Shown piece after piece: positions 1 to 3,394 of a DNA stretch of 64,000 nt. The notes beneath the pieces are model-generated. The model worked only from the letters and a program-made list of their open reading frames with translations. It made no database searches and had not been told where the DNA came from. The number at the start of each line of letters is the position of its first letter. Positions within the stretch are counted from its first letter, which is position 1. The stretch is from Ktedonobacteraceae bacterium (lineage in GTDB: Bacteria > Chloroflexota > Ktedonobacteria > Ktedonobacterales > Ktedonobacteraceae). A program made the translations under genes and the position numbers. The DNA lies in the NCBI GenBank assembly GCA_035653615.1, contig DASRBN010000012.1:62001-126000 (forward strand). The letters run 5' to 3'.

Positions 1-92
1 CAATGGTAATCCAGGAAACACATGAGACACTCTACCATGTCCTCTGGGAGTTGGTACATATTTTCTTTGAACACGAGGGGTTGTTGACATGA
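1..92 (+). CDS. SIS-domain (phosphoheptose-isomerase-like) protein, C-terminal end only
   Basis: The last 29 codons of a gene that enters from the left edge, read in the frame that begins at base 3 and stops with TGA at 90-92. The visible end (VIQETHETLYHVLWELVHIF) is clearly paralogous to the C-terminus of the complete SIS protein at 440-1120 (IQEAQATAYHALLEVIHVLL), so this is a second GmhA-like sugar-phosphate isomerase-fold protein. Its stop overlaps the start of the HypC-like gene in an ATGA arrangement, so the two are translationally coupled in the hydrogenase maturation operon. Proteins of this fold accompany actinobacterial and chloroflexal group 1h hydrogenase clusters, but their role there is not established. 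The start lies outside the window. Confidence 0.75.
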   Translation, partial: MVIQETHETLYHVLWELVHIFFEHEGLLT

Positions 93-427
93 GCGATGAC
101 AATACAATTGTAAGGATGGGGGAAGTGGAGACAAGCGGCGGGGACCCTGGTGGTCGCCCTCAGATACGCCTGGATCGGAGCTTCATGATTGATGGCGGCA
201 TGTATTGCATTCCTGATGAGGATGGTCATTGCACGACATGCTCGGACGAGGCATTACAGGCAAAAGTCTTGCGCATCGACGAGGAGACCGGCCTGGCGCT
301 GGTGGAAATGATGACGGAGGAGCCACGAACAGAGGAGGTCGATATCAGCCTGGTTGAGAATGTCGTGCCGGGCGATTTGTTGCTGGTCCATGGCGGAGTG
401 GCAATTGGGAATGCCGATATGGTCTAG
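89..427 (+). CDS. hypC: HypC/HupF-family hydrogenase maturation chaperone, atypical N-terminus
   Basis: 112 residues, longer than the usual 75-95 of HypC. HypC binds HypD and carries the Fe(CN)2CO unit to the large hydrogenase subunit, using the cysteine that follows the initiator methionine. Here the HypC-like core begins only at about residue 38 (MYCIPDEDGHC, then TTCSDEA), after a polar 37-residue extension, so no Met-Cys N-terminus is present. The beta-barrel end (VVPGDLLLVHGGVAIG) fits the family. The TCSDEA segment resembles HypC relatives that travel with group 1h hydrogenases. An internal ATG at 200 would give Met-Tyr-Cys and has no good ribosome site, so the long start, coupled to the upstream stop, is preferred. 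It is followed after 12 bases by the second SIS gene. Confidence 0.8.
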   Translation: MSDDNTIVRMGEVETSGGDPGGRPQIRLDRSFMIDGGMYCIPDEDGHCTTCSDEALQAKVLRIDEETGLALVEMMTEEPRTEEVDISLVENVVPGDLLLVHGGVAIGNADMV

Positions 428-439
428 AAGAGATAAACA

Positions 440-1120
440 ATGAGCGACTCGGAGGGTTCTGAATACGACCGGCTATTTTATCCTTTCCTTTTTGAGGGAG
501 GTAAATCTAGTAAAGAGGATGTGCTTGCGCAGGTACGCCATTCGACACTGGAAAAGTGCCGCGAGGTGATTGAGCTGCGACGCGCAACCCTGGAGCATTC
601 TGGCGAGCGCATCGTTGCCGCGGCTGAGGCGATGGCGAGCGCTTTTGCGCGTGGAGCTACGCTGCTGGCCTTCGGTAATGGCGGAAGCACCACCGACGCT
701 CAGGACCTGGTGACAGAACTGCTCAATCCGCCTTTTCCTGACTGGTCGCCGCTGCCGGCCATCGCGCTGACCAACGATATCGCCGTAGTGACAGCAGTGG
801 CAAATGATGTCGGCTTCGACAATGTCTACGCGCGCCAGGTGATTGCTTTCGGCAGGCCGGGAGATATCGCGCTCGGCATCTCGACGAGTGGCAATTCGAC
901 GAATGTGCTGGTTGCGCTCGAACAGGCCAAAAAGCAGGGACTTATGACGGTAGGATTGACCGGTTACGACGGCGGCAAAATGATGCGTTCCAGAGTAGTC
1001 GATTTTTGCATCAATTCGCCGGGAGACCATATTCCGCGTATTCAGGAGGCGCAGGCAACGGCCTATCACGCGCTCCTGGAGGTGATCCATGTTCTCTTGA
1101 AGGAAGGGAAAACCAGATGA
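440..1120 (+). CDS. SIS-domain phosphoheptose-isomerase-like protein of the hydrogenase operon
   Basis: 226 residues, a single SIS domain. Recognisable features are the sugar-phosphate loop LLAFGNGGSTTDAQDL near residue 75, the second loop ALGISTSGNSTNVLVAL near residue 150, and the C-terminal helix IPRIQEAQATAYHALLEVIH, all as in GmhA (sedoheptulose-7-phosphate isomerase). It lies inside the hyp operon and its stop overlaps the ATG of hypD (ATGA at 1117-1120). Lipopolysaccharide heptose synthesis is not expected in this lineage, so a role linked to hydrogenase maturation or to a small ligand is more likely, but this is inference. The two SIS proteins around hypC could form a hetero-oligomer. 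Confidence 0.85.
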   Translation: MSDSEGSEYDRLFYPFLFEGGKSSKEDVLAQVRHSTLEKCREVIELRRATLEHSGERIVAAAEAMASAFARGATLLAFGNGGSTTDAQDLVTELLNPPFPDWSPLPAIALTNDIAVVTAVANDVGFDNVYARQVIAFGRPGDIALGISTSGNSTNVLVALEQAKKQGLMTVGLTGYDGGKMMRSRVVDFCINSPGDHIPRIQEAQATAYHALLEVIHVLLKEGKTR

Positions 1121-2262
1121 GCATGAAGTATGTTGACGAGTACCGAGATCCAGAACTGGCCAAACGCATCGCCGCCGAGATCGCGAGGATGAGCGAAGCT
1201 CGACCCCTCAAGTTCATGGAGGTCTGCGGCGGCCACACGCACACCATCTACAAACACGGGATCGAGGACGTATTGCCGCATAATATTGACCTGGTGCATG
1301 GGCCGGGCTGTCCCGTCTGTGTCCTGCCCATGGGCCGCATCGATGACGCCATCGCCATTGCTCGTATGGACAATGTCATCTTCACTACCTTTGGCGATAT
1401 GATGCGCGTGCCGGGTTCAAAAGGCAGCCTGCTCGATGCCAAGGCCGAGGGAGCCGATGTGCGCTTCGTCTATTCGCCGCTTGATGCCTATAAGCTGGCC
1501 CGCCAGAATCCGGACCGCCAGGTAGTCTTCTTTGCCATCGGCTTTGAGACCACCGCGCCCTCAACTGCCGTAACCCTGCTGCGAGCGAAGGCTGAGGGAC
1601 TCAAGAATTTTTCCGTCTTCTGCAATCATGTCACCATCATCCCGGCAATGAAGGCCATCCTTGACTCGCCCGACCTGCGGCTGGATGGCTTTATCGGCGC
1701 GGGGCATGTCAGCATGGTCATCGGCATGCGACCCTACAATTTTGTTGCGCGCGACCACCACAAACCGGTCGTGATCGCCGGCTTCGAGCCGCTCGATATC
1801 ATCCAGGCTGTGTATATGCTTGTGAAGCAGATCAACGAGGGGCGAGCCGAGGTCGAGAACCAGTATTCGCGCGTCGTGCGACCGGAAGGGAATGTCAAGG
1901 CGCTAGAGGCAATGGCGCGTACCATGGAATTGCGGCCATTCTTCGAGTGGCGCGGCCTCGGTTTTATCACGCACAGCGCGCTGAAGCTGCGTCCAGAATT
2001 TGCCGATTGGGATGCCGAACTGCGCTTTGAGGTGCCGGGACTGCGTGTGGCCGATCCCAAGGCCTGCCAGTGCGGCGAGGTACTCAAGGGAGTCATCAAG
2101 CCGTGGGAGTGCAAGGTATTCGGAACCGCCTGCACGCCGGAGACGCCTATCGGCACCTGCATGGTTTCGCCAGAGGGTGCCTGTGCCGCGTACTTCAACT
2201 ATGGGCGGTTCTCTATGGCCGCTGAACGCACGCGGCTGAAAGTTCTTCCAACGACAAATTAA
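1117..2262 (+). CDS. hypD: HypD, Fe-(CN)2CO assembly scaffold for [NiFe] hydrogenase
   Basis: 381 residues. HypD is an iron-sulfur protein that, with HypC, holds the iron while HypE delivers cyanide ligands. The signature motifs are all visible: FMEVCGGHTHTIYKHG near residue 35, VHGPGCPVCVLP near 66, IGFETTAPSTAV near 143, GHVSMVIG near 205, and the C-terminal cysteine cluster (ACQCGEVL, WECKVFGTAC, GTCMVSPEGACAAYFNYGRF). The open frame extends upstream to 1006, but the ATG at 1117 is chosen because it overlaps the stop of the SIS gene, is preceded by AGGAAGG, and gives the usual family length. It is followed by hypE after 19 bases with a GGAGG ribosome site. Confidence 0.95.
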   Translation: MSMKYVDEYRDPELAKRIAAEIARMSEARPLKFMEVCGGHTHTIYKHGIEDVLPHNIDLVHGPGCPVCVLPMGRIDDAIAIARMDNVIFTTFGDMMRVPGSKGSLLDAKAEGADVRFVYSPLDAYKLARQNPDRQVVFFAIGFETTAPSTAVTLLRAKAEGLKNFSVFCNHVTIIPAMKAILDSPDLRLDGFIGAGHVSMVIGMRPYNFVARDHHKPVVIAGFEPLDIIQAVYMLVKQINEGRAEVENQYSRVVRPEGNVKALEAMARTMELRPFFEWRGLGFITHSALKLRPEFADWDAELRFEVPGLRVADPKACQCGEVLKGVIKPWECKVFGTACTPETPIGTCMVSPEGACAAYFNYGRFSMAAERTRLKVLPTTN

Positions 2263-2281: not shown

Positions 2282-3394
2282 ATGGATACATCAAGGCCGG
2301 ATAACTCGGAGCGCATCGACGATGTGCTGAAGAAGATTGAGCGCACGCGGCAGGCACGCAGGCATAAGTTCTACCTGCGCGACGAGAAGATCAATCTCAG
2401 TCACGGCAGCGGTGGTAAGGCCACGCATAACCTGATCGAAGGCGTCTTCGCACCCGCCTTCTCGAATCCGCTGCTGGACTCTATGGACGATGCGGCAACA
2501 TTCGGCATCGATGGTACGGGGCAGCGCCTGGCATTCACCACCGATACATACGTGGTAAGCCCGCTCTTCTTTCCCGGCGGCGATATCGGCAAACTGGCGG
2601 TCCATGGCACCATCAACGATCTGGCAATGGCGGGCGCGCAACCACTCTATCTTTCCGCAGGCTTTATCCTGGAAGAAGGATTCCCCATCACCGAGCTGCG
2701 CCGCGTCGTGGCCTCGATGGCAAAGGCGGCAGCGGATGCCGGTGTAGCCATTGTCACGGGTGATACGAAGGTGGTGCAGCGCGGCAAGGCGGACGGCCTG
2801 TTCATCAACACGGCGGGTGTTGGACTTATTCGTGCCGCCTGGCCCATGGGGCAGGCCCAGGTGCAGCCGGGAGACAAAGTGTTGTTGAGCGGCCCGGTTG
2901 GCGATCACGGCATCGCCATCATGCTGGCACGCGAGGCGCTGGACATTGAGACCGACGTGGTAAGCGATACGGCTCCCCTGCATACAATGGTGGCCGCTAT
3001 TCTAGAGGCGGCAGGGGATGCAGTTCATTGCATGAAAGACCCCACGCGCGGCGGCGTAGCGACGACATTGAACGAGATCGCCATCGGCTCGGAAGTTTCC
3101 ATCGGTCTTGACGAACAGGCTATCCCCGTCCGTGCGGAAGTGCGCGGGGCCTGCGAAATTCTCGGCCTCGATCCGCTCACCATCGCCAACGAGGGCAAGA
3201 TGCTGGCTATTGTTTCTGCTGAGAAAGCGGAGGCCGCGCTGGAAGCCATGCGCTCGCACCCGCTGGGACAGGAGGCCGCGATTATCGGCTCTGTACAATC
3301 CGAGCCGCCAGGAATCGTTTTCTTGCGCACGGACATTGGGGGCATGAGAGTTTTGGATATGCTGGTGGGGGATCCGCTGCCGAGGATATGCTGA
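2282..3394 (+). CDS. hypE: HypE, carbamoyl dehydratase/cyanide donor for [NiFe] hydrogenase
   Basis: 370 residues, AIR-synthase (PurM-like) fold. HypE dehydrates the carbamoyl group placed by HypF on its C-terminal cysteine to a thiocyanate, which is passed to HypC/HypD. The diagnostic C-terminus PRIC is present. Other motifs are LSHGSGGKATHNLIE near residue 40, the ATP-binding region VTGDTKVVQRGKADG near 158, and GDHGIAIMLARE near 205. An extra polar N-terminal stretch of about 35 residues precedes the conserved LSHGSGG. GGAGG lies 8 bases before the ATG. This is the last hydrogenase gene in the window. HypF, HypA, HypB and the structural subunits must lie upstream of base 1 or elsewhere. 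Confidence 0.95.
   Translation: MDTSRPDNSERIDDVLKKIERTRQARRHKFYLRDEKINLSHGSGGKATHNLIEGVFAPAFSNPLLDSMDDAATFGIDGTGQRLAFTTDTYVVSPLFFPGGDIGKLAVHGTINDLAMAGAQPLYLSAGFILEEGFPITELRRVVASMAKAAADAGVAIVTGDTKVVQRGKADGLFINTAGVGLIRAAWPMGQAQVQPGDKVLLSGPVGDHGIAIMLAREALDIETDVVSDTAPLHTMVAAILEAAGDAVHCMKDPTRGGVATTLNEIAIGSEVSIGLDEQAIPVRAEVRGACEILGLDPLTIANEGKMLAIVSAEKAEAALEAMRSHPLGQEAAIIGSVQSEPPGIVFLRTDIGGMRVLDMLVGDPLPRIC

Follow-up and report, generated by a model that had tools for sequence, protein, structure and literature searches.

The window, the 64,000-nucleotide stretch analyzed here (C12:62001-126000 of a 6.59-Mb draft genome), opens in a [NiFe]-hydrogenase maturation cluster in which a HypC-like protein lies between two SIS genes and begins without the Met-Cys of HypC. 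Since Cys2 of HypC is an iron ligand, the locus raises the question of whether such a protein can be the HypC of this hydrogenase and, if it is not, what it does instead. We find that it is a HypC paralog, referred to here as HypC2, and not the HypC of this hydrogenase, because a canonical HypC sits in the same group 1h cluster. The features concerned are the following:

1..92 (+): 3′ end of SIS1 (gene C12:61478-62092), with an ATGA overlap between its stop and the start codon of HypC2
89..427 (+): HypC2, a paralog with the HypC fold and an internal CxxCxD; an ORF with a PF01455 match, in a separate clade
89..205 (+): non-conserved N-terminal extension, residues 1-39; its length varies among relatives and its pLDDT is mostly 50-70
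206..208 (+): Cys40, the first Cys of C-x(n)-CxxC, present in 67/85 sequences
230..247 (+): CxxCxD motif, C48-T-T-C51-S-D53, from profile alignments and the motif-blind test
389..391 (+): His101, the HypD-facing equivalent of E. coli HypC His51, invariant in alignments
440..1120 (+): SIS2, a GmhA-like SIS_2 protein; phosphate loop STSGNS kept, Asp at the GmhA His64 position
1117..2262 (+): HypD (CGGHTH, GPGCPVC), of the HypC2-associated HypD clade; its start overlaps the SIS2 stop
2282..3394 (+): HypE, with C-terminal PRIC

The ORF at 89..427 (+) encodes 112 aa, and its start at 89 is credible: the start codon and the SIS1 stop overlap by 4 bp (ATGA), GAGGGG stands upstream, and the ATGA overlaps at both SIS1/HypC2 and SIS2/hypD support the annotated start and suggest translational coupling. 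The protein starts MSDDNT, which confirmed the first-pass annotation in that there is no N-terminal Met-Cys; the internal MYC (residues 38-40) and CTTCSD (48-53) that it had described are both present, and both flanking genes match SIS_2, as it had proposed. HypC2 matches PF01455 (HupF_HypC) over residues 58-108 with 32.5 bits against a gathering cut-off of 28.5, and it scores 25.2 bits with TIGR00074, the curated HypC model, below the cut-off of 48. The implied view that this ORF is the cluster's own HypC had to be given up, since the ORF falls short of TIGR00074 and a canonical hypC, named beforehand as the finding that would speak against that view, lies ~0.8 kb to the left of window base 1 (C12:61188-61460). 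This gene encodes a 90-aa protein with a Met-Cys start (MCLGIPGK...; MCLGIPGKIIDIV...), which scores 96.6 bits with PF01455 and 88.8 with TIGR00074, above the cut-off of 48. The genome contains exactly two PF01455 genes, HypC2 and this canonical HypC, both in this cluster.

The cluster runs hhyS, hhyL, NifU-Rieske, DUF5947, DUF6084, two ORFs, protease, hypA, hypB, hypF, hypC, SIS1, HypC2, SIS2, hypD, hypE, and it encodes the only [NiFe] large subunit detected in the genome. Here hhySL occur with DUF5947, DUF6084, the protease and hypABFCDE, and we take the hydrogenase to be of group 1h from this gene set and from the identity of the large subunit to its cluster homologs. The gene immediately after hhyL encodes a NifU-like domain fused to a Rieske [2Fe-2S] domain (L003:7064-8071, C12:53064-54071). 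The two conserved ORFs before the protease (346 and 108 aa, L003:9416-10779) have no Pfam match; many Actinomycetota loci have them merged into a single ORF, and other loci have a fusion of the 108-aa ORF with the protease.

Our survey demonstrated that HypC2 is one clade, with members in Chloroflexota, Actinomycetota, Deinococcota and others, and that a single branch of the tree (support 100/98) parts HypC2 from HypC, the sole misplaced row being a false positive of the search pattern. Matches were found in 27 of 301 Chloroflexota genomes, one of them false, and HypC2 is present in about 41 of the 297 genomes of the Actinomycetota draw after removal of four canonical HypC matches. Further homologs came from GTDB contigs, where a search with the single window sequence gave no matches and an alignment query recovered them; all 83 homologs match PF01455 at E<=0.01. 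Two candidates were rejected as false positives, one a penicillin-binding-type protein (L030) and the other a canonical HypC read with upstream codons (L013_c2_10).

In nearly all cases, HypC2 occurs together with a canonical HypC and with a HypD of one particular clade. For example, 40 of the 41 HypC2 genomes of the Actinomycetota draw contain at least two PF01455 genes, and on a Thermus thermophilus plasmid HypC and HypC2 are adjacent and are followed by hypD. Most of the loci with no canonical HypC nearby have one elsewhere in the genome; G327, which was reached via a MAG contig, does not, and in G356, where HypC2 is present, no canonical HypC was detected, possibly because of assembly gaps. 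HypC2 is not confined to group 1h, since in G286 (L066) it adjoins HypC-HypD-HypE in a cluster with no SIS genes and with a large subunit that shares only 25% identity with HhyL. In Rhodococcus, we observe two Cys2-type HypCs in addition to a SIS1-HypC2 protein, and an ORF that follows hypD (L033:13489-14257) may be another, divergent component of the maturation cluster. In microarray tables for M. smegmatis, the Hhy gene region includes two genes labeled "HypC/HupF" and a gmhA (PMC5445863), so that a duplicated hypC annotation beside a SIS gene is already on record.

HypC2 is a HypC by fold. In the AF2 model, the barrel (strands 56-108) is confident and the extension before it is of low confidence; Foldseek matches this model best, within the PDB, to HypC chains (TM on the target up to 0.87), including 3vyr/3vyu/2z1c and, among them, HypC chains of HypC-HypD(-HypE) complexes. 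The barrel retains the segment G-D-x-x-L-x-H-x-G-V-A, and ahead of the fold stands the motif C-x-x-C-[SGA]-D, which is essentially invariant. Raw motif percentages are circular for columns selected by regular expression, and the figure to cite is therefore that of a motif-blind search, whose profile was built solely on residues that follow the motif. With it, CxxCxD was found directly upstream in 29 of 30 further homologs, the exception being an apparent frameshift; the CxxC motif is thus not a chance occurrence. At L074/L151, the HypC2 ORF shows an apparent 1-base frameshift inside CxxC, probably an assembly error.

No Met-Cys start was seen among the HypC2 homologs. In profile alignments of HypC2 to HypC, Ala55 pairs with Gly/Ala4 and the Pro position with Pro6; a gapless extension two residues past this aligned block would place Asp53 at the Cys2 position, with Cys51 two residues before it. 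The first-pass annotation had proposed that internal cysteines replace the classical ligand, and this proposal survives in part: the internal CxxCxD is essentially invariant, but the residue extrapolated to the Cys2 position is Asp, and the upstream canonical HypC can still fill the classical Cys2 role. Compared with HypC/HybG, HypC2 thus shares the barrel fold, the segment GD-x-L-L-V-H-x-G-x-A with its HypD-facing His and the hyp neighborhood, and differs in having no Met-Cys, in the extrapolated Asp at the equivalent position with CxxC just upstream, in scoring below the TIGR00074 cut-off and in coexisting with a canonical HypC.

The associated HypD proteins point to a partner. In a 72-sequence tree, the HypDs that occur with HypC2 group into a single clade (SH-aLRT 90, one label change), and the lowest identity to the HypD of the window is 66% for HypDs with HypC2 versus 44-56% for others, the latter being a small, non-systematic negative set. 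These sequences come from a BLAST-based set; a CGGHTH-filtered set was dropped, since the filter removed most of the negatives. HypD is a steadier partner of HypC2 than the SIS proteins are. In HypC, the conserved His51 is located where the protein meets HypD, and HypD is bound less well when this residue is exchanged (PMC9002611); to bind the apo-large subunit HycE, HypC requires Cys2 (PMC12134894). With the HypD-facing His kept and Cys2 absent, the economical reading is that HypC2 binds HypD and is not a carrier to the large subunit. We therefore favor, with a probability of about 0.6 and from sequence and fold comparison, the reading that HypC2 is an auxiliary protein of the HypC-HypD-HypE scaffold, not a carrier of Fe(CN)2CO, and that its CxxCxD is a metal or thiol site. 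HypC2 would dock on HypD via the conserved His face, it would not pass Fe(CN)2CO to the large subunit because Cys2 is absent, and CxxCxD may bind iron or provide a thiol site while the iron center is being assembled.

The SIS proteins are coupled to HypC2 in many of these loci. SIS1-HypC2-SIS2 is one polypeptide in 12 loci; this triple fusion is seen in Thermoleophilia-type MAGs, in one Chloroflexota genome and in a Dormibacterota MAG, and SIS1-HypC2 is one ORF in Rhodococcus, Acidimicrobiaceae and others. One triple fusion was modeled (pLDDT 85.7, pTM 0.84), and this model matches GmhA and, less well, the tandem-SIS structures of glucosamine-6-phosphate synthase. SIS1 and SIS2 share the SIS_2 fold with GmhA-type proteins, and GmhA structures are their best matches by sequence and fold; unlike GmhA-type proteins, they score below the GmhA equivalog cut-offs and are either coupled to HypC2 or fused with it. 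SIS1 has lost the phosphate loop of GmhA, which is degenerate here (SPGGTC), and keeps the His, Glu, Gln and His positions; SIS2 keeps STSGNS, but Asp replaces His64 and Gln replaces the first His in the C-terminal segment. SIS1 and SIS2 may form a heterodimer with composite sites. In SIS-containing lineages, HypC2 would anchor this sugar-phosphate-type heterodimer to the scaffold. A role as a SIS tether cannot be universal, since several HypC2 genomes have no SIS pair of the cluster type, and at the threshold used no SIS hit was found in the HypC2 genomes G084, G076, G310 and G314.

Pairs of HypC-family proteins are also known from other maturation systems. Like HupF/HoxL, HypC2 is a second HypC-family protein beside HypC in the hydrogenase clusters of aerobes; no SIS fusion is known for HupF/HoxL. 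HypC2 does not show the HoxL-type pattern of Met-Cys kept and His lost, and C. necator HoxL is rather its mirror case, with MC kept and the His missing, the reverse of HypC2. The likeness allows a second carrier, in which canonical HypC and HypD build the Fe(CN)2CO group, an internal CxxC cysteine of HypC2 replaces Cys2, and HypC2 delivers the group or protects it en route to the large subunit, comparable to the role proposed for HupF/HoxL. The essentially invariant CxxC two residues ahead of the Cys2-equivalent position is consistent with this, as are the pairs of HypC with a HupF/HoxL paralog in O2-exposed maturation (PMC3534401, PMC12134894). We regard it as a less likely possibility, however, because HoxL is the opposite of HypC2 in its N-terminal Cys and HypD-facing His, HypC binding to the large subunit reportedly needs Cys2 (PMC12134894), and a position between fused SIS domains would limit shuttling.

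A different role is suggested by the distribution of HypX, the CO-forming enzyme of aerobic [NiFe] maturation, which resembles HypC2 in being an accessory gene of that maturation and is unrelated to it in sequence. HypX is absent from the genome of the window, and no full-length HypX was found in 29 HypC2 genomes; it is rare overall (8 of 297 Actinomycetota genomes), and unconditional co-occurrence with HypC2 is therefore uninformative. A signal appears only in the subset of Actinomycetota with a 1h large subunit (n = 27), where HypX is present in 1 of 18 genomes with HypC2 versus 5 of 9 without it (Fisher p 0.008, which overstates the evidence because HypX-bearing clusters share ancestry). 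Group 1h clusters thus tend to have HypC2 or HypX and rarely both, a partial alternation that is suggestive and phylogenetically confounded; G411 carries both. Three Chloroflexota genomes have HypX, with HypC2 in 0/3, and no hydrogenase genes were seen beside these three HypX genes. Five HypX clusters of Actinomycetota (L157-L161, from G351, G451, G490, G613 and G623) contain canonical HypC only, with no SIS/HypC2, and a HypD ~50% identical to that of the window; four of them adjoin group 1h large or small subunit genes, and in G490 hhySL lie ~0.2 Mb away. They are apparently an alternative maturation set for the same hydrogenase group. S. avermitilis has hypX, a gene that not every high-affinity H2 oxidizer carries (PMC4767420), and the CO source outside the HypX route has been described as unresolved (review PMC12134894).

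The boldest conclusion that could be drawn is that HypC2 with the degenerate SIS1/SIS2 forms a separate and so far undescribed branch in the assembly of the [NiFe] cofactor, one that substitutes for HypX in many aerobic atmospheric-H2 oxidizers, with CxxCxD as an iron or ligand site in place of Cys2, and we consider this doubtful. More doubtful still is the specific proposal that, in aerobes, HypC2 and SIS1/SIS2 form a route independent of HypX by which the CO ligand is supplied or channeled. The 29 genomes with no full-length HypX, the alternation among 1h Actinomycetota and the HypX clusters with canonical HypC and no SIS would all fit, but the HypX clusters all fall within a single clade of HypD, and the association may therefore reflect one or two events; four 1h genomes without HypC2 have neither system, some HypC2 genomes have no SIS pair, and the rarity of HypX and the coexistence in G411 also count against it.

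The three-gene order kept as fusions could alternatively mean that HypC2 is a purely structural adaptor between SIS1 and SIS2, in which CxxCxD is a zinc or structural site and HypD is not contacted. This is unlikely, as HypC2 adjoins HypC-HypD-HypE even where a genome lacks the SIS pair, and the His that faces HypD remains invariant. The option, also offered by the first-pass annotation, that the 37-residue extension is a leader cleaved to expose a catalytic N-terminal Cys, for which the location of Cys40 after Met38-Tyr39 might speak, can be dismissed almost entirely, since the extension is unconserved, variable in length, modeled with low confidence and nearly absent in relatives (starts MSYCHFDGHC, MSKQQCHRNDEHC and MNERYCQAEHC), the Cys40 equivalent is absent in 18/85 sequences, and HypC2 is internal in the fusions, with no N-terminus near the motif, the 12 loci with a single SIS1-HypC2-SIS2 polypeptide excluding a processed N-terminal Cys as a general mechanism.

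In the open-access literature, we found no functional study of HypC with SIS or phosphoheptose isomerase and no paper on a CxxC HypC-like protein. HypC2 proteins are simply named HypC in databases, although the residue that defines HypC function is absent, and the fusions link them to SIS proteins. HypC2 occurs in many hydrogenase clusters of the atmospheric-H2 type. If HypC2 belongs to the HypC-HypD-HypE scaffold, as we favor, it would be a missing maturation factor for heterologous production of these hydrogenases; if it replaces HypX, it would point to the origin of the CO ligand in aerobes that lack HypX.
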